Source of the DNA: Acetobacteraceae bacterium
GTDB lineage: Bacteria; Pseudomonadota; Alphaproteobacteria; Acetobacterales; Acetobacteraceae
Length of the DNA: 32,288 nt
Assembly (NCBI GenBank): GCA_003137135.1
Contig: PLFB01000245.1
Location: forward strand, 3,227 to 35,514
Direction: 5' to 3'
This document shows positions 2,568-18,496 of this stretch, piece after piece. The first letter of the stretch is position 1. Each line of letters begins with the position of its first letter. Both the position numbers and the translations under genes were made by a program. The notes under the pieces are model-generated. The model did not search any database, had not been told where the DNA came from, and saw only the letters and a list, made by a program, of their open reading frames with translations.

Positions 2568-3518
2568 TCCTTGCAGCGCCGCCCACATCTCCCGATCGCG
2601 CGCCGCCGTCCACACCCGCGGCGTATCGATGCCCAGCGCCTCGTCGTAGGCGCGGGCGACGTTGAACGGCAGGCAGTGTTCATAGATCGCGTAGCCGGAG
2701 AATTTGGCGTCACCGGCGGCGCGCGCCGCCGCCATCGCCTCTTTGAGGCTGCCGCCGCGCGCCGCGACGCCGTGCACCGGCCGGTAGGTGGTTTCCAAAA
2801 AATCCTTGGTCAGCGCCAGCGCTTCGGCAACCTTTTCGGGCCCCACCAGCGCGTCGCCGCGGCCAGGCGCCAGCGCCGCCGGCGCAAAAGCGGCGATCGC
2901 GTCCAGCGTCGCCGGCCAGTCGCCAAAATGCCCGTCGCCGCAGTAGCAGGCGGATTTGTATTCCACGATGTCGCCCGAAAACATCGTGCCCGCATCCGGC
3001 ACCCAGGCGACGATGTCGCCGGCGGTATGCGCGCGGCCAAGCTGCATCAGCTCGACCCGCCGTTTGCCGAGATACAGCGTCAGCTTGCCGGCAAAAGTCA
3101 GCGTCGGCCAGGTCAGGCCGGGCACGCTTTCGGCCGCCTGGAACAGCCGCGGAAACCGGCCGAGTTCGCTGTCCCAGTCCTCCTGCCCGCGTTCCTGGAT
3201 CATCGCCCGGCATTTTGTGGAGGCGATGATTTCCGACGCGCCGTAGGCCGAAGCGCCCAGCACGCGCACCGCGTGATAGTGCGAGAGCACGACGTATTTG
3301 ATCGGCTTGTCCGTCACCATTCGTATGTTGTCGATGACAAGCCGCGCCATCACCGGCGTCGCCTGCGCGTCGACGATCATCACGCTATCGTCACCAATGA
3401 TCACGCCGGTATTGGGATCGCCCTCCGCGGTATAGGCGAACAAATTTGGGCCAATTTCGGTAAACGATATTGTCTTCTCCGCGAGATCGCCGGTGGAGGC
3501 GAAGGAATTTGTTGCCAT
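2565..3518 (-). CDS. MBL-fold metallo-hydrolase with altered metal motif, hmg cluster
   Basis: A 317-residue metallo-beta-lactamase-fold protein. ATG 3518 is chosen because GAGGA lies about 8 nt upstream; an upstream in-frame ATG at 3581 has no comparable ribosome site. The usual zinc motif HxHxDH appears as SHYHAVRVLGAS, so the first two His are kept but the Asp and third His are replaced by Val and Arg. The later His (GRAHTAGDIVAW) and bridging Asp (FSGDIVEY) are present. This suggests that one metal site is intact and the other altered. It follows fahA by 72 nt on the same strand and is probably in the hmgA operon. The substrate is unknown; a thioesterase- or lactonase-like step in aromatic catabolism is possible, but nothing in the sequence fixes it. 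Confidence 0.82.
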   Translation of the reverse strand: MATNSFASTGDLAEKTISFTEIGPNLFAYTAEGDPNTGVIIGDDSVMIVDAQATPVMARLVIDNIRMVTDKPIKYVVLSHYHAVRVLGASAYGASEIIASTKCRAMIQERGQEDWDSELGRFPRLFQAAESVPGLTWPTLTFAGKLTLYLGKRRVELMQLGRAHTAGDIVAWVPDAGTMFSGDIVEYKSACYCGDGHFGDWPATLDAIAAFAPAALAPGRGDALVGPEKVAEALALTKDFLETTYRPVHGVAARGGSLKEAMAAARAAGDAKFSGYAIYEHCLPFNVARAYDEALGIDTPRVWTAARDREMWAALQG

Positions 3519-3590
3519 GGCTATATCCTCATTCGTAATCGGTTTGGTTTTGCGTCGCCGCCCGCGCGCGAGCTTGCGCACAAAGCGTGT

Positions 3591-4874
3591 TCACCCCCGG
3601 CCCGCTTCCCAGCCATCCACCGGCAAAGCCGGCAGAATTTTGCCAGTACATTCGCCAAAGCCGATGCGGTAATCCGGCCCCTGCGCCCAGCCGGTCAGCG
3701 TCAGCGTGTCGCCATCCTCGATGAACGTCCGGGTTTCGCCGGTCTCCAGCGTCAACGGCTCCGCCCCGCCCCACGACAATTCCAGCAGCGAGCCGCGGCT
3801 GTCCTTCGTCGGCCCGGAGATCGTGCCGGACCCCAGCAAATCCCCCGTCTCCATTTTGCACCCGCCGATCGCGTGGTGCGCGAGCTGCTGCGGCGCCGAG
3901 AAATACAATTCCCGCGCATTCGTCCGCGAGATCACGCTCGGCCGCGCCGCCCCCTCCGGCTGCATCAAAATTTCGAGCTGGATGTCGAACAGCATCGGCC
4001 CCGGTTCGGCCAGGTAAGCCAGTAGCGGCCGCTCGCGCGCTGGTGCTGCGACCCGGAACGGCGCCAGCGCCGCTTTGGTCACCACCCAAGGACTGATCGA
4101 CGTCCCAAAAACTTTTGCCTGAAACGGCCCCAGCGGCTGGTATTCCCAGGCCTGGATGTCGCGCGCCGACCAGTCATTCAGCAGCACGTAGCCAAAAATC
4201 TTTTCCTCCGCCTCGGCCACCGTGATCGGCGCCCCCATCGCCGTCGGCAGCCCGACCACAGCACCCATTTCCAGCTCAATATCCAGCCGTCGGCTCGGCG
4301 AAAAAACCGGCAAATCCTGGCCCGAAGGTTTGATCTGCCCGAGCGGCCGCCGGATCTCCGTCCCGCTCACCACCACCGTCGAGGCGCGGCCGTTATAGGC
4401 AATCGGAATGCTCAGCCAATTCGGCGGCAGCGCATTCTCCGCGCCGCGGAACATGATACCCACGTTCGACGCATGGTGCTTGCCGGAATAAAAATCCGTG
4501 TAGCCGGCGACCCTGAACGGCAGATGCATTTTGACATCCGCCATCGGCGCCAGCACGCGCGCCCGCAGCGCCGCGTCGCCCCGCAGCGCGTCATCGCCGC
4601 CCTCCGTTAACAGCGCCGTCAGCCGCGCCCGCATGGCGTCCCATGCAGCCGCCCCCAACGCCATAAAATCATTCAGCGCCGGCGCGCCAAACACCCGCGC
4701 CGGCCCGGCGCTGATCAGCCCAGCCTGCTCCAGCACCGCCAGATCAGCCACGCAGTCACCGATCGCCACACCACAGCGCGGCGCTTCGCCGTCCCGGCTG
4801 AACACGCCGTAAGGCAGATTCAGCAACGGAAAATGGTTTTCGGGATGATTCGCACTCGCAATCCAGCTTTTCAT
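3591..4874 (-). CDS. fahA: Fumarylacetoacetase
   Basis: A 427-residue enzyme that hydrolyses fumarylacetoacetate to fumarate and acetoacetate, the last step of tyrosine/homogentisate breakdown in the cytoplasm. The catalytic region reads [19 protein letters not shown], matching the family Asp metal ligand and catalytic His. The acidic metal ligands appear in [12 protein letters not shown] and [19 protein letters not shown]. Length is close to the usual 415-435. The ATG at 4874 overlaps the hmgA stop codon (ATGA), so the two genes are translationally coupled. I see no maleylacetoacetate isomerase gene in the window, so the isomerisation between HmgA and FahA must be encoded elsewhere or be glutathione-dependent without it. 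Confidence 0.96.
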
Positions 4875-12784: not shown

Positions 12785-14545
12785 CTAAAATTCCCGATCC
12801 GACTCAAACAAATCCATCAGCTCCTGCGCCGCCTCATACGTGGTCTGGATCAACTTCCCCTCGTCATGCGCAAACGCCCGGCTCTCCACCAGAATCCGCT
12901 CGTCATGCGCCTCGAACAGCGCAATCGCCCGCTCCGCCTGGCTCTTGCCGATCCCAAGCTCCGCCATCGTCAACGCCGTCAGCCGCAGGCTGGAGAAATA
13001 GGTCTCCCGAATAATATGCTCGATCCCGAGATCCATCAGCAAATGCACATGCCGCCGGTTGCGCGCCCGCGCCACGATCGCCAGGTCCGGAAATTTTCGC
13101 CGCACCATCTGCGCCGTTTTCAGCGAGGCATCCATGTCATCCAGCGCGATCACCAGCACCTTGGCATCCTGCGCGCCGGCCGCGCGCATCACCTCCTCGC
13201 GCGCCGGATCGCCGTAAAACACTTTTGTGCCGAACCGCCGCACCACGTCCACCTGCTCCTGGTTCTGGTCCAGCGCGGTAAACGCAATCTTCTGCGCGGA
13301 GAGAATCCGCCCCACGATCTGCCCCATCCGCCCGAACCCGCAGATGATCACCGGCGTCACCCCGTCATCGATCTTATCAAACGGCCGCGCCGCCGGCCGC
13401 GCCAGCCGCGGCTGCACCAAAATCTCGGCGGCGGAGAACAATACCGGCGTCACCATCATCGAAAGTGCGACCACCAGCGTCGCCATATCCGCGATGTGCT
13501 TGTCCAGCGCCCCGCTCGCCACCGCCGCGCCGAACAGCACGAAACTGAACTCACTCCCCTCCGGCAGCGCCAGCCCAAACCGCAGCGCCGGCCCCACCAG
13601 CCGCCGCCGCGTAAAGCTCACGCCAAACGCCACCATTGCCTTCAGCCCCACCAGCCCGACCACCAGCACCAGAATCTCCAGCGGCTGATGTAACGCGAGG
13701 GAAAGATCGGCCGACATCCCCACCGAGATGAAAAAGAACCCCAGCAACAACCCCTCGAACGGCTCGATATCCGCCTGAATCTCGTGCCGGTATTCCGAAT
13801 CCGACACCAGCACGCCCGCCATGAACGCCCCCAGCGGCGCCGACAACCCGCCCCAATTCGCCAGCGCCGCCGTCCCGATCACCAACAGCAGCGCCGTCGC
13901 GGTAAACATTTCTGGCACCCTGGTCCCGCCGATAATGCGAAACAGCGGCCGCAGCAAAAAACTCCCGCCCACCAGGATTGCCGCAATCACCCCAATGCCG
14001 CGGAAAAAATCCGCAATCGAAACCTGCTCCGAAAAATTCGATCCGCCGGCCAGCAGCGGCACCAGCGCCACCACCGGAATCGCGGTAATATCCTGAAACA
14101 GCAGCACCGCGAACGCATCCCGCCCGGCAATCGAAGGCAACAGATTCCGCTCCCCCAGCATCGGCAGCACGATCGCGGTCGAAGACAGCGCCAGCCCAAT
14201 CCCCAACAGCCCCGCCCCCGTCCAGGCCAGCCCGAAAAAATGCGCCACCCCGGCGATCAGCACCGCCGTCGGCACCATCTGCCCCAGCCCCATCCCGAAC
14301 ACGGCTTTCCTGAGAATCCAAAGCCGATGCGGCCTTAACTCCAGCCCAATCAGAAACAGCAGCATCACCACGCCGAGTTCGGAAACGTCGGCAATCTGCC
14401 CCACATTATTAACCAGCCGCAGCCCCGAAGGCCCAATCACCACCCCCGCCCCCAGATACCCCAAAATACTCCCCATCCCCGCCCGCCGCGACAACGGCAC
14501 AGCAATCACAGTCGCGGCCAACAATATCACAAGGGTAATCAGCAT
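12785..14545 (-). CDS. Kef-type monovalent cation:proton antiporter (CPA2) with TrkA-N domain
   Basis: A 586-residue inner-membrane antiporter. Residues 1 to about 380 form the Na+/H+ exchanger-type transmembrane domain (twelve or so helices; early signature FLIGLELRPHRLW, later LGAFMAGVLVSDSEYR). From about 395 to 520 there is a cytoplasmic TrkA-N/RCK nucleotide-binding domain with VIICGFGRMGQIVGRIL and ALDQNQEQVD. The C-terminus is a charged tail. By family it exchanges K+ (or Na+) for H+ and is gated by NAD(H) or thiol conjugates; whether it is nearer KefB or KefC cannot be said. No KefF/KefG-type partner is adjacent. Start ATG 14545, end just before a family B repeat. Confidence 0.92.
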   Translation of the reverse strand: MLITLVILLAATVIAVPLSRRAGMGSILGYLGAGVVIGPSGLRLVNNVGQIADVSELGVVMLLFLIGLELRPHRLWILRKAVFGMGLGQMVPTAVLIAGVAHFFGLAWTGAGLLGIGLALSSTAIVLPMLGERNLLPSIAGRDAFAVLLFQDITAIPVVALVPLLAGGSNFSEQVSIADFFRGIGVIAAILVGGSFLLRPLFRIIGGTRVPEMFTATALLLVIGTAALANWGGLSAPLGAFMAGVLVSDSEYRHEIQADIEPFEGLLLGFFFISVGMSADLSLALHQPLEILVLVVGLVGLKAMVAFGVSFTRRRLVGPALRFGLALPEGSEFSFVLFGAAVASGALDKHIADMATLVVALSMMVTPVLFSAAEILVQPRLARPAARPFDKIDDGVTPVIICGFGRMGQIVGRILSAQKIAFTALDQNQEQVDVVRRFGTKVFYGDPAREEVMRAAGAQDAKVLVIALDDMDASLKTAQMVRRKFPDLAIVARARNRRHVHLLMDLGIEHIIRETYFSSLRLTALTMAELGIGKSQAERAIALFEAHDERILVESRAFAHDEGKLIQTTYEAAQELMDLFESDREF

Positions 14546-14930
14546 GACTCTGAACTAGGGGCAGCCGAACTCAGGAAGCAAGCCCTTCCGCCGCTGTAGG
14601 GTAGGGTGCTCTTCCGCACCCCACCTCTCCCGTGTCGCGAAGCAGACCGCTGAATGCAGACCCGTCAGATGGGTGGCGCTCGTGCGAAACCCCATCATTC
14701 AACGCCCCCTGATCACCAGCGAGCCGCCCTTCGTTATCCACCCCCCACGTAACAACTCCCCCACCGCAAATCCCACCACCTTCGCAACAACCCCACCGCC
14801 CGCCTAAACCTTTCAACACCGCCTCAATCTGTTACAATTCCCCCGAGAACTGTATCAAATTTCCCAATTGTTAGCGGTGTTACAAATTTGTTACAATCTA
14901 TTCTTTCACCGGAACACCGGCAAGACGATC
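14546..14930. other. Intergenic region with repeat debris and TGTTACA motifs
   Basis: I see no convincing gene in these 385 bases; an 82-codon minus-strand frame has no start signal and repetitive, Gly-rich translation. 14590-14705 contains sequence like the common intergenic repeat words TAGGGTGC and GCGAAACCCCATCATTC; a related stretch lies at 18518-18552. 14820-14930 is AT-rich and carries CTGTTACA and TGTATCAA (14829-14857) and two TGTTACA words flanking AATT (14878-14895). The Kef promoter should lie in this region. Confidence 0.6.
14829..14857. repeat. CTGTTACA inverted-repeat motif, copy 1
   Basis: CTGTTACA (14829-14836) and TGTATCAA (14851-14858 region) form an imperfect inverted repeat with a spacer of 14. 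Nearby, TGTTACAAATTTGTTACA (14878-14895) contains the 10-bp palindrome ACAAATTTGT. The motif recurs at 16146-16174 and 16491-16519 inside the same island. It is probably an operator or other protein-binding site; function unknown. Confidence 0.55.
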
Positions 14931-15296
14931 CTAGTTCCCTCCAAAGAAATTTTGGAATCGTCGCAAAAGACCACCTGAAAACGAGCCCGCCATGTTGGCT
15001 ATCCTAACCCAGTGTTCCAACAGTTTTTGATACACTTTACCTAATTCTGTAGCATGGCGCGATGTGACGTCAAAATTTGGCTGGGGTTGACGCTGAAGAC
15101 GGGATCGACTCTTTTTTGTAAACTTCCTAAAGCTGAGCGCGTAATTCCTTTCCACGTTGGTTGAGTTGAATTGTGATCTTTGCGAAACTAGCAAACATGT
15201 CTGAGCCTTCGTCATAGCGTTATCATCGGCGTAGGCGTATGCTGGTATTATCAGTAGAAAAACAAAAGCGGCGGTCTTCTAAATTTGGTTGATCAT
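14931..15296 (-). pseudogene. Small secreted protein gene broken by an in-frame TAG at codon 6
   Basis: The frame begins at ATG 15296, which overlaps the stop of the upstream gene (ATGA), and reads MINQI, then TAG (15279-15281), then KTAAFVFLLIIPAYAYADDN. That last stretch is a typical Sec signal peptide with an AYA or AYADD cleavage region. It continues for about 95 residues (AMTKAQTCLLVSQRSQFNS and so on, ending RFQNFFGGN). The signal peptide cannot be made as one piece unless the TAG is read through. I do not recognise the family; the mature part is basic and has no clear domain. The reading of one nonsense mutation in an otherwise coupled gene pair is inferred from the overlap and the intact signal sequence. 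Confidence 0.65.
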
Positions 15297-16100
15297 TGAT
15301 TATTCTCTTGAAAATCAATCTGGTCACACGGCAAATTGCCGTCGAACGGGGGACAGCTCATTTCAAATTTGATGATAAATGGAATTAGATAATTTGAATC
15401 TGATGAAACCCGGATAGCCATTAAATCTATCAAGTAGGCTGGCCCTGGATCATTTATCATTTCAATCAGACCATCGGTAGGCAGACGCGACAAGGTGCTC
15501 AAATCGTTCGGGGAATATCTGGTGGCGTTCAAAATCTCCGTTCCAAGACCTCTATGATCAGCTGGCGTCCGGTATTGCAACTGTGAATCAGAGGTGTAAT
15601 TCAGCGTGTCTGTGCCAAATCGAGGGACAAGACTTTCGCCTTCTAATAACGAACCCTGCTGCTGTGCCGACTTCAAAAAATCTGATTTAGAACAAATTTT
15701 CTGGAAGTATTGGGAACAATATCGCCGCACGAAACTGACCCCTGGCCCAGTTTCAGCGGAACCCGCCATCATTACAATCGCCGGCCCTGTATCGGTATCG
15801 CCGGTCTGCGGGCTGGCCCAAAGTGAGCCAATAGCATTGCCCCACTCACCTCCGCATTTCCATCCGCGTGGTGCTAAAAATCCCAAACCGTGGCCCAACG
15901 TACAGCGCCAATTTCGCGGCGGCTGCCGGCGGCATGTCAACTGTAATGGGATGGCCGGACGGCGGATCGATAGGTCCCGCCATATCATTGCCCGGGCATC
16001 CGACGAACGGAATCGTGCTTGATGCCAGGGCTGGCAATGCCGGAAACCCCCAAACACCAAGAGCGACTAAAACCATAGTCCAACGAAATAAATTCGACAT
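15293..16100 (-). pseudogene. Conserved hypothetical exported protein with a frameshift
   Basis: The first frame starts at ATG 16100 with a clear signal peptide (MVLVALGVWGFPALPALASS), then TIPFVGCPGNDMAGPIDPP, and runs to LALYVG. A surplus G or C within 15891-15896 then throws it into a frame that stops at 15846. Removing one base joins it to GHGLGFLAPRGWKCGGEWG and on to LQYRTPADHRGLGTEIL, with a stop at 15293. The LAPRGWxCxGxxG and YRTPAHxxGLGT segments are hallmarks of a widespread family of exported proteins of unknown function. The repaired protein would be 268 residues. It may be a true pseudogene or an assembly error. It overlaps the next small gene by ATGA. Confidence 0.78.
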
Positions 16101-16145
16101 GAAGTGGCCTGGTGTCGCTGAAATTTTCGGAGTTAGTCATCAACT

Positions 16146-16174
16146 CTGTTACACGATATCCAATTCGGTATCAG
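16146..16174. repeat. CTGTTACA inverted-repeat motif, copy 2
   Basis: CTGTTACA (16146-16153), 13-nt spacer, GGTATCAG (16167-16174). It matches copy 3 (16491-16519) at 23 of 29 positions. It covers the stop codon of the 94-residue hypothetical gene and lies about 45 nt upstream of the frameshifted exported-protein gene, so it could be an operator for the latter. Confidence 0.6.
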
Positions 16175-16455
16175 GAATTTTGGATTTTAGCATCTGGCAA
16201 ATGCCATCGAACGCCCTCCGCAGAGATTTCTAGCACGAGGCTCCGTGAAAGCTCCGTCCAAGGCGATGTCGTATCGTCATATTCTACAAGTTCATAAGAT
16301 CGGCCGCACTTCGACCAGTTAGTGCACGGGGCAACGTTGGGCCGCTCATCCCACGGGATTTTGGCTCTGTGTTCCAACTCGGATAATGCCTCATCGCGCG
16401 TTGAGAATCTTCCTTCCTGCCACTCAGCATGAATTTCATCCTCAATCACAAACAT
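16171..16455 (-). CDS. Conserved hypothetical protein, intact
   Basis: A 94-residue soluble acidic protein beginning MFVIEDEIHAEWQEGRFSTR and containing AIPW-type core (HRAKIPWDERPNVAPCTNW), SKCGRSYELVEYDD, and LEISAEGVRW near the end. I recognise the pattern (xIPWDExPNxAPCxxWxxCGRxYExxEYD) as a small family of unknown function in alphaproteobacteria; the two Cys are part of it. ATG 16455 is chosen because GAGG lies 6 nt upstream; a longer frame from 16509 starts in the copy 3 motif. It is the only minus-strand gene in the island without a visible lesion. No function is proposed. Confidence 0.72.
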   Translation of the reverse strand: MFVIEDEIHAEWQEGRFSTRDEALSELEHRAKIPWDERPNVAPCTNWSKCGRSYELVEYDDTTSPWTELSRSLVLEISAEGVRWHLPDAKIQNS

Positions 16456-16490
16456 AAAGAACCTCGGAAATCCAAACGTTAACGGTCTAA

Positions 16491-16519
16491 CTGTTACAGT
16501 ATTACCCATTCTGTATCAG
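16491..16519. repeat. CTGTTACA inverted-repeat motif, copy 3
   Basis: CTGTTACA (16491-16498) and TGTATCAG (16512-16519) pair at 7 of 8 positions across a 13-nt spacer. It sits 36 nt before the start of the intact 94-residue gene on the minus strand, which is the position expected for a promoter or operator. Confidence 0.6.
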
Positions 16520-16590
16520 ATTCCAGCCAAAATCCAGCCCCCAATGCCCGCGCCCCGAAGCCACTAACGGCGTTGTGGCGGCCCGCCCGT

Positions 16591-16827
16591 TCACACCAAA
16601 ACGTCAAGACCATGCTTTCGGCTGATATCCAACAGTTTCAAGGCCATATTGCTTGGCCGCTTGGCCCCCGTCTCCCACTACTCCACAGTGCTCTCGCTGG
16701 TGTTTAAATACCGGGCAAACACTGGCTGGCTAAATTGGTTAGCCTCACGGATTTGCTTAATCTCTAACGGACCGATTTCCACCGGCACAGTCAGACCGCC
16801 AGCACCCCGTCCCAAACCGCTGACGCC
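16591..16827 (-). pseudogene. XRE/YiaG-type helix-turn-helix regulator interrupted by TAG
   Basis: Minus-strand reading gives LTVPVEIGPLEIKQIREAN, then QFSQPVFARYLNTSESTVE, then TAG (16678-16680), then WETGAKRPSNMALKLLDIS and RKHGLDVLV before TGA (16591-16593). Without the TAG this is a textbook Cro/CI-type HTH of the YiaG/antitoxin sort, where the position is normally Gln (VxQWExGxKxPSG). A CAG to TAG change would explain it. The upstream frame shows no ATG (a GTG at 16788 is possible). A neighbouring frame reads FDEASAVWDGVLA, which may be the displaced N-terminus, hinting at a second lesion. It was probably a local regulator, perhaps of the island or of the divergent PYP gene. Confidence 0.7.
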
Positions 16828-16954
16828 TCATCGAAGTCGCTAATATTTCCAATGACGGAACCCAAAATCGCCAATCGATGTTGGGAATATCTTAACGAAA
16901 CAGTGTCTATTCACGTCTGCCAGGGATTTATCCTGATAACTTGGAGGACCGACG

Positions 16955-17350
16955 ATGCGTGCGGCAGACACTGATGTTGGGCTCGAAGATATCGGCTTCG
17001 AGAGCGCAAATCTATTGAATCGGCTTGATTTAATGGCTGATGAAACATTGGATCATCTGAAATTTGGCATCATCCGCTTCGACAAGACCGACAAAGTCAT
17101 TTTCTACAACAAGACTGAAAGCCAGGCATCATTATTGCCGCTGACGAAGGTGCTGGGCCGTAATTTCTTTGCGACCGTAGCGCCCTGCATGAACAATTAC
17201 ATGGTCGCGACGCGGTTCGAAATCGAGCCCGAACTGGACGCCGTGATCGATTACGTGCTGACGCTTCGGATGCCTCCAACGCCGGTTAAAATGCGATTAC
17301 TCGCCTCGCAGTCCAGCCCCAACCGTTATGTTGTGATCAAGTGGCTTTAG
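16955..17350 (+). CDS. pyp: Photoactive yellow protein (PYP) homologue
   Basis: A 131-residue PAS-fold blue-light receptor, which binds p-coumaric acid as a thioester to a Cys. From memory it aligns to Halorhodospira halophila PYP without gaps from residue 24 to 79 at an offset of 9: LKFGIIRFD, VIFYNKTES, GRNFFATVAPC. Tyr42, Glu46 and chromophore Cys69 are kept as Tyr51, Glu55 and Cys78. Thr50 is Ser59, Arg52 is Leu61, and Met100 is Met106. The end MPPTPVKMRLL and RYVVIKWL matches the last strands (MTPTKVKV, YWVFVKRV). Only a three-residue deletion is needed near residues 86-92. ATG 16955 has GGAGGA at 7 nt. The histidine kinase follows after 87 nt. No tyrosine ammonia lyase or coumaryl ligase gene is in the window. 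Confidence 0.9.
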   Translation: MRAADTDVGLEDIGFESANLLNRLDLMADETLDHLKFGIIRFDKTDKVIFYNKTESQASLLPLTKVLGRNFFATVAPCMNNYMVATRFEIEPELDAVIDYVLTLRMPPTPVKMRLLASQSSPNRYVVIKWL

Positions 17351-17437: not shown

Positions 17438-18496
17438 ATGAGCCCCAGACAGAACTTTGCAGACCAATTCAGCGAGCTTCTCGAATTCTTTTACCTGTTG
17501 CCGATCGGCGTCATAAAATTCAAGGGCGAAGGCAGTGTCGAACTGATCAATCCGGAATCGAGCGGGCTGCTGATGCCGCTCATCGGCAACGCCGGCCTGA
17601 ACAATATCTACATCACACTTCGCGAGCTGATGCCCGACCTAGCCAAAGTTGTCGCAAACTCTTCAGAATCCCTCGGCGTGCTGGTCGATCAGGGGCATCC
17701 CACGGCGGGCGTTGCGAACCACGTGGTCTCGCTCTCGCTGACGGTTGCGCGGGTGCGCGAGGACACCTATTTGGCCGCCATCGAAGATGTGAGCCGGATG
17801 AGCGATCTGCTGACCCGCCTGACGCGATCCAATACCGAACTGGAGAGTTTCGCCTACGTCGCATCCCATGACATGCAGGAGCCGGTGCGGATGATGTTGA
17901 GCTTCACGCAACTCCTGGAACGCGATTATCACAATGTGCTGGACGCGGAGGGGCGGCAATATCTGTCGATCATCGAAAGCTCGGCGTTACGAGTACGCAA
18001 TATGATCCGTGACCTGCTGGACTATGCCAGGCTGGAGGGCGGCTCGGGCGACTTTGGGCCGGTTGACATGCGCCTCAAGTGGGACATGGCAGCGGATAAT
18101 TTGCATCAGCTCATCGCCGAGACGAAGGCGGTCATCACCTGCGACGATCTGCCGGTGGTCAATGCCAACGCCATTCAGGTGACGCGTATTTTACAAAATT
18201 TGCTGCAGAACGCGGTCAAGTTTCAGCCGCCGGGACAGCTTCCGCTTGTGCATCTGGGGGTCACGCAAGAGGCGGACGGGCCGGTGTTTTATGTGCGTGA
18301 TAACGGCATCGGCATAAAGCCCGAGTTTGTGGAGCAGATTTTTGAGCCGTTCCGGCGGCTCCATACATGGGACGCGATACCTGGCAGCGGGCTTGGGCTT
18401 TCGATCTGCCGCAAAATCATCGAGCGGCATGGCGGCAAGATCTGGGCGGTCTCCTCGCCAGGCGCGGGCACGACCATCTATTTCAAGCTACGGTAA
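17438..18496 (+). CDS. Histidine kinase with N-terminal PAS-like domain, PYP-linked
   Basis: A 352-residue soluble sensor kinase with no membrane segment. Residues 15-125 look like a PAS domain (LLPIGVIKFKGEGSVELINP), which lacks a PYP-type Cys. A short coiled linker leads to the dimerisation domain FAYVASHDMQEPVRMMLSF with phospho-acceptor His144. The ATPase domain shows the N box ILQNLLQNAVKFQPP (Asn258), G1 VRDNGIGIKPEF, F box IFEPFRRL and G2 GSGLGLSICRKII. The His motif resembles kinases attached to bacterial phytochromes. AGGA precedes ATG 17438. It is in the same direction as pyp, 87 nt downstream, and has no response regulator beside it. A role as PYP output partner is inferred from context. 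Confidence 0.9.
   Translation: MSPRQNFADQFSELLEFFYLLPIGVIKFKGEGSVELINPESSGLLMPLIGNAGLNNIYITLRELMPDLAKVVANSSESLGVLVDQGHPTAGVANHVVSLSLTVARVREDTYLAAIEDVSRMSDLLTRLTRSNTELESFAYVASHDMQEPVRMMLSFTQLLERDYHNVLDAEGRQYLSIIESSALRVRNMIRDLLDYARLEGGSGDFGPVDMRLKWDMAADNLHQLIAETKAVITCDDLPVVNANAIQVTRILQNLLQNAVKFQPPGQLPLVHLGVTQEADGPVFYVRDNGIGIKPEFVEQIFEPFRRLHTWDAIPGSGLGLSICRKIIERHGGKIWAVSSPGAGTTIYFKLR

Follow-up and report, generated by a model that had tools for sequence, protein, structure and literature searches.

A clade-C photoactive yellow protein homolog and an adjoining histidine kinase with a shared partner domain: a candidate two-gene blue-light input module in an Acetobacteraceae bacterium

The stretch of DNA analyzed here, referred to as the window, comprises 32,288 nucleotides from an Acetobacteraceae bacterium (assembly GCA_003137135.1, contig PLFB01000245.1, positions 3,227 to 35,514). 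It encodes a homolog of photoactive yellow protein (PYP) of the clade-C type and, downstream on the same strand, a sensor histidine kinase whose N-terminal domain recurs in the genes adjoining nearly all clade-C PYPs that we collected (Table 1). We consider it probable, though by no means secure, that the two genes form a blue-light input module in which PYP would act in trans on the partner domain of the kinase and thereby alter phosphotransfer.

Table 1. Coordinates of the PYP gene, the kinase gene and their features in the window
Feature	Position	Strand	Basis
PYP homolog, clade-C type, 131 aa	16955..17350	+	Homology, tree, AlphaFold2 model
GGAGG, likely ribosome-binding site of the PYP gene	16943..16947	+	Read from sequence; 7 nt before ATG
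Codon Tyr51 (= Tyr42 of H. halophila PYP)	17105..17107	+	Alignment; Tyr in 25/27 clade-C rows
Codon Glu55 (= Glu46 of H. halophila PYP)	17117..17119	+	Alignment; Glu in 27/27 clade-C rows
Codon Cys78 (= Cys69, chromophore attachment)	17186..17188	+	Alignment; Cys in 27/27 clade-C rows
Sensor histidine kinase, 352 aa; starts 87 nt after the PYP gene	17438..18496	+	Pfam/NCBIfam, motifs
N-terminal PAS-like "PYP-partner" domain, residues 1-122	17438..17803	+	Common to genes after 24 more clade-C PYPs; Pfam silent
HisKA, residues 136-202	17843..18043	+	PF00512, E = 1.1e-12
HATPase_c, residues 245-351	18170..18490	+	PF02518, E = 2.5e-27

The first-pass annotation, made from the letters of the window, had proposed a PYP homolog at this place, and the searches confirmed it. 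The sole NCBIfam match of the 131-aa open reading frame (ORF) was TIGR02373 (photoactive yellow protein; E = 5.9e-19, 68.4 bits). Because this score lies below the curated cut-off of 143.05, the protein is not filed under the TIGR02373 photo_yellow equivalog; the model covers only 20% of the PYP homologs found by BLAST (PMC9664959). Pfam returned PAS_4 alone, with an E value of 0.11 and below its cut-off. A phmmer search of the PDB gave 33 distinct sequences, each of them PYP, the PYP domain of Ppr or the PYP-derived FAST (best E = 3.4e-13). The match to H. halophila PYP had been described as gap-free over residues 24-79; the computed alignment in fact runs without a gap over query residues 11-89 and extends to 129, with Cys78, Tyr51 and Glu55 opposite Cys69, Tyr42 and Glu46, as the annotation had placed them. 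In a Foldseek search with an AlphaFold2 model (mean pLDDT 83.8, built from 7 sequences), the top 39 chains all belonged to the PYP family (rank 1, E = 5.5e-10), and the first other PAS domain appeared at rank 40 (E = 6.9e-6). The annotation had named a generic PAS domain as the competing identity, and a PYP-family HMM and a comparison of the predicted structure with PYP structures as the means of deciding. In both comparisons PYP scored far better, and the generic PAS domain was rejected. The PYP family is defined in PMC9664959 by homology together with Cys69; the window protein shows both, as well as the equivalents of Tyr42 and Glu46.

A tree of 50 PYP-like sequences from the collected loci and H. 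halophila PYP, fragments shorter than 95 aa being excluded, placed the window PYP within a clade of 27 rows (support 100/99), with H. halophila PYP outside. Nine residues separate these 27 rows from the other 24, namely, Leu52 (25 of 27), Asn72, Val75 and Ala76 (27 each), Leu96 (24), Thr97 and Arg99 (26 each), Leu107 (25) and Arg108 (27). The window PYP carries eight of them (L52, N72, V75, A76, L96, T97, R99 and R108) and has Met in place of Leu107. According to PMC9664959, clade C consists of Proteobacteria, especially Burkholderiales, and has no characterized member; Phe92, Phe96 and Trp119 are not conserved in it, while Met100 is kept. At these four places, the window PYP has Ile, Leu, Tyr and Met, respectively. 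The 27-row clade thus appears to be the published clade C, an equation drawn from these residues and from the Burkholderiales membership rather than from the published tree.

The earlier description of PYP as rare among bacteria proved dated. A total of 984 homologs have been published (PMC12826048), and we found a PYP homolog in 17 of 150 genomes of the same family, the window's own counted, 7 of which carry a clade-C PYP. Eight of the remaining 10 fall outside the clade by the tree; the other 2 (G044 and G076) were judged by signature residues alone because their fragments of less than 95 aa had been left out of it. Given its position in the clade and its clade-C residues, the window protein is a new member of a known PYP family and not a very rare one. 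The class and phylum draws gave mostly short, weak PAS matches, of which those below 54 bits against the PYP profile were discarded. PYP counts in these two draws are lower bounds because scoring was limited to the ~10 top candidates of the first look in each genome.

Several features of the wider collection were recorded in passing. PYP homologs occurred on plasmids in 13 records, and public entries label the clade-C PYPs of plasmid records L107-L110 and L112 as "phosphonate transporter", a misannotation of PYPs noted in PMC9664959. The L164 locus (2916-3702; genome G143) contains two tandem clade-C PYP genes, the second with GRC in place of the APC Cys motif; they precede a single GGDEF-HisKA-HATPase partner gene, and a dedicated coumarate-CoA ligase (pCL) lies on the opposite strand. 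In L080 and L081, PYP-like domains form the N termini of large proteins and have Ser for Cys69 and Ala for Glu46, and these domains are probably no longer chromophore-binding.

The chromophore pocket of the window PYP is largely intact. PMC12826048 lists nine pocket residues, eight of which are retained (Ile31, Tyr42, Glu46, Phe62, Val66, Ala67, Pro68 and Cys69); the ninth, Phe96, is replaced by Leu, as it is in 24 of the 27 clade-C rows. With Ser in place of Thr50, absorption may lie toward the blue end, near 434 nm, according to a trend based on two proteins in PMC12826048. The protein is nevertheless divergent: of the 43 strongly conserved columns, 7 deviate from the clade-C consensus here, among them Hhal position 51 (Gly to Leu), and its end branch of 1.1 changes per column is the third longest in the clade, after those of L007 (2.09) and L012_1886 (1.4). 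The long branch and the deviating columns suggest that some change of its properties is possible.

With respect to chromophore supply, we found no tyrosine ammonia lyase (TAL) in the window genome, the assembly of which is 83.8% complete. Its single PF00221 protein (L027) was rejected as a TAL candidate, as it exceeded the NCBIfam cut-offs for histidine ammonia-lyase but fell far short of those of the tyrosine lyase and mutase models; it stands between genes over the cut-off for hutI and hutG. Histidine ammonia-lyase (HutH) is therefore the only aromatic lyase found in this genome. A dedicated pCL was not found either, the best TIGR02372 score being 89.6 bits against a cut-off of 334.7 and the best match to a profile of four PYP-linked ligases having an E value of 2.1e-20. 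Because the assembly is incomplete, these absences are not proof that the genes are missing. The genome gave 29 TIGR02372 matches, 8 of which were obtained as loci and 7 classified; one of the 7 is a benzoate-CoA ligase family protein (L030, over its curated cut-off), which might substitute for pCL.

The evidence from relatives for a link between clade C and p-coumaric acid is partial. Judged by the same four-ligase profile, a strong pCL (E < 1e-80) was present in 14 of 25 PYP-bearing genomes, taken from 31 with a PYP-like match, and in 5 of the 8 clade-C genomes among them. The three clade-C genomes without it were the window genome, G049 and G092, the last two being 98-99% complete and yet lacking pCL. 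At the level of loci, a PYP-type CoA ligase lay beside the pair in 10 of the 21 clade-C loci checked, with 8 of 10 plasmid loci having it, and was absent from 11, including all 6 from the genome collection (4 of these 12 kb long). In L115 (Indioceanicola profundi), an annotated aromatic amino acid ammonia-lyase lies directly upstream in addition to the ligase. Among published PYP operons, TAL is present in 5% and pCL in 32%, and uptake or distant genes have been suggested (PMC12826048).

These results bear on an alternative that we regard as unlikely, namely, that fold and partner are preserved in the window PYP while, in this lineage, it senses a cue other than light, either as an apoprotein or with another ligand on Cys78. 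A genome in which no dedicated pCL was detected and HutH was the sole aromatic lyase found, together with the long end branch, would be consistent with such a role, and loss of chromophore binding by PYPs has been described in methylobacteria (PMC9664959). However, unlike in the published losses, the equivalents of Cys69, Glu46 and Tyr42 are all retained here, along with the rest of the pocket except one residue. Moreover, the benzoate-CoA ligase family protein might stand in for pCL, and p-coumaric acid could be taken up, as PMC12826048 suggests. The first-pass annotation had spoken of a working light sensor. The pocket agrees with this, whereas the failure to find either TAL or a dedicated pCL in the incomplete assembly is its main weakness; from the residues, we infer that the window PYP is likely, though not certainly, a blue-light sensor.

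The product of the downstream gene, which the first-pass annotation had left unmentioned, combines HisKA and HATPase_c with the intact motifs SHDMQEP (143), NLLQNAVKF (254), DNGIGI (288) and GSGLGL (316), which we take to be the H, N, G1 and G2 motifs, and is a histidine kinase by these features. When its N-terminal part was searched alone against the ORFs of the PYP loci, it matched, for most of the close PYP relatives, the gene that comes immediately after them. This partner domain starts the next same-strand gene after 25 of the 27 clade-C PYPs, with 23 cases coming from a profile search of the loci and 2 (L003 and L078) from a six-frame search. The two clade-C PYPs without an adjoining partner are the first tandem copy in L012, the second copy of which has one, and the PYP of L107. 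At the latter locus (2983-3369), a histidine kinase is encoded further upstream on the same strand, and the opposite strand encodes a CheR-PAS-kinase-REC protein. None of the 23 other PYP rows was followed by the partner domain in flanks of ~1.5 kb or more, some of them ended by the contig; 10 of these rows sit in ORFs of more than 200 aa, where a downstream partner is less expected.

The domain is fitted to different outputs. In 26 proteins that carry it, no Pfam match starts before residue 132. Among the 23 of 25 partners that were scanned (L003 and L114 left out), 19 contain GGDEF, including GGDEF-EAL in L166 and GGDEF-HisKA-HATPase in L164, 2 contain PAS without a recognized GGDEF (L013 and L024), and 2 contain HisKA-HATPase alone (the window and L007). 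In L003, L004, L108 and L167, two successive genes both begin with the partner domain. Where these were scanned (L004 and L167), the first encodes GGDEF and the second GGDEF-EAL, and thus one PYP could address opposing c-di-GMP enzymes.

As these counts stem from the surroundings of PYP genes, we also asked how the domain is distributed in whole genomes, using a profile whose 8 rows came from the window plus six loci in a different collection, so that no other genome of the family draw contributed to it. The domain was found in 7 of 150 same-family genomes, the window's own included, and these are the same 7 that carry a clade-C PYP (Fisher p = 3.4e-12, which overstates the association because the genomes are related). 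By coordinates, 10 of the 11 copies in this draw lie directly downstream of a PYP match. The exception, L165 (3357-3674; genome G143), is a PAS-GGDEF protein with no PYP match adjoining. In the 398-genome phylum draw, with ~10 candidates per genome scored, the domain was present in at least 2 genomes, the two with a clade-C PYP. Distances between PYPs correlated with those between partner domains (r = 0.70 for 25 pairs and 0.62 for 19 pairs) and with those between the remaining parts of the partner proteins (0.65 for 19 pairs). The correlation with the partner domain is no higher than that with the rest of the protein and can be explained by co-inheritance without contact.

It could thus be argued that PYP and its downstream gene are merely co-inherited, with PYP signaling elsewhere and the PAS-like domain of the kinase sensing a ligand of its own. 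Apart from the distance correlations, which do not single out the N-terminal domain, this would fit the gap between the two genes, which is 87 nt in the window versus -32 to +12 nt in 22 relatives, and the L165 copy without a PYP beside it. Yet the domain follows PYP across GGDEF, GGDEF-EAL, GGDEF-HisKA and HisKA outputs and was not found in the sampled genomes without a clade-C PYP, and we judge mere co-inheritance to be very improbable. No terminator was found between the two genes of the window, and promoter-like sites in the interval numbered 2 against 1.4 expected.

The structural model of the partner domain was of only moderate quality (pLDDT 76.2). Its best Foldseek match was the PAS domain of FixL (E = 2.1e-5); PAS matches had E values of about 1e-5 to 1e-3, and PYP chains stood lower. 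A recent duplication giving rise to PYP and the partner domain was considered and rejected, as the profile comparison between the two was weak (probability 17%). We found no description of a shared PYP partner domain in the available text of PMC9664959 and PMC12826048 or among the papers listed by searches of the open-licence literature, supplements aside. On balance, we lean slightly toward the view that the N-terminal domain of the kinase represents an undescribed PAS subfamily, a plug-in receptor for clade-C PYP that has been combined in evolution with diguanylate cyclases, with an enzyme of the GGDEF-EAL type, with a hybrid of GGDEF and kinase and, in the window bacterium, with a plain histidine kinase.

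The PYP-kinase pair was likely imported. PYP was not found in nine same-genus genomes of the order draw. In the three nearest genus-mates (rpsA 92-94%), rpsA and ihfB are ~150 nt apart, versus 6.3 kb in the window, where the interval is taken up by the PYP and kinase genes, a kefC-like gene and a gene-poor stretch; in the remaining six genus-mates, there was no ihfB within ~6 kb downstream of rpsA. The island DNA gave no match to the stretches from the nine genus-mates. Between about 15 and 17 kb of the window, G+C is 0.42-0.54; around the PYP gene it is ~0.50-0.53, as compared to 0.57-0.65 inside kefC and rpsA. The KefC-like potassium efflux gene (window 12785-14545), located between ihfB and rpsA, was likewise not found in the nine genus-mate stretches. 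The region beside the PYP gene (14560-16950) is gene-poor and low in G+C, and Pfam gave no significant match for three ORFs in it (16171-16509, 14931-15215 and 15846-16100).

This could suggest that the two genes arrived recently and are now drifting or out of use. The absence of PYP from the genus-mates, the widened rpsA-ihfB interval, the shifted G+C and the three neighboring ORFs would all suit a recent arrival. Drift or disuse, however, accords poorly with two open frames in which the key residues of PYP and the motifs of the kinase are in place and with the Shine-Dalgarno-like GGAGG ahead of the PYP gene; we hold a drifting or unused recent import to be quite improbable.

We therefore return to the two-gene input module. 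In it, p-coumaric acid would be attached to the clade-C PYP at Cys78, and its phenolate would be held by Tyr51 and Glu55. Light would isomerize the chromophore and alter the surface of PYP, which would then contact, in trans, the PAS-like N-terminal domain of the adjoining kinase. This domain would relay the change to HisKA and HATPase and so modify phosphotransfer to a presumably unlinked response regulator. The N-terminal domain may be a receiver dedicated to clade-C PYPs that elsewhere resides mainly on diguanylate cyclases, in which case the output would have been swapped from c-di-GMP to phosphotransfer in the window bacterium.

The signaling partner of the model PYP is still unknown after four decades (PMC11003764 and PMC13250908), and the signal transduction chain of PYP has been called an important gap (PMC12826048). 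For clade C, a sequence-defined partner domain linked to its PYPs reduces this gap to a question that a simple binding assay between small proteins can address. The natural swaps of output suggest a modular two-part light switch, and if the plug-in receptor reading is true, it identifies the missing direct signaling partner for a whole branch of PYPs.

Compared to H. halophila PYP, the window protein is likewise a single PAS-fold domain with Tyr42, Glu46, Cys69 and Met100. The two share about 29-30% identity in the Foldseek alignments, and the window PYP differs in Arg52 to Leu, Thr50 to Ser, Phe96 to Leu and Trp119 to Tyr, in falling below the TIGR02373 cut-off and in a genome where pCL and TAL were not found. 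It resembles the clade C of Xing et al. 2022 (PMC9664959) in the loss of Phe92, Phe96 and Trp119, the retention of Met100 and an adjacent signaling gene; however, the published neighbors are often GGDEF proteins, while the window neighbor is a downstream histidine kinase without GGDEF. Its placement also differs from that of operon kinases in PMC12826048, which prefer a position upstream of pyp. As in R. centenum Ppr, a PYP would feed a histidine kinase, but Ppr is a single PYP-phytochrome-kinase fusion with a bacteriophytochrome, whereas the window has two genes and no phytochrome domain. As in Idiomarina loihiensis, a single-domain PYP is thought to act in trans on the adjoining enzyme; there, the PYP belongs to clade A, and the adjacent GGDEF protein gives a c-di-GMP output (PMC9664959). 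Among the loci examined, that of the Spirochaetes MAG GWE1_32_154 pair (L007) is the only other one in which the partner domain is joined directly to HisKA-HATPase; its PYP, with an end branch of 2.09 and Val in place of Met100, is very divergent.
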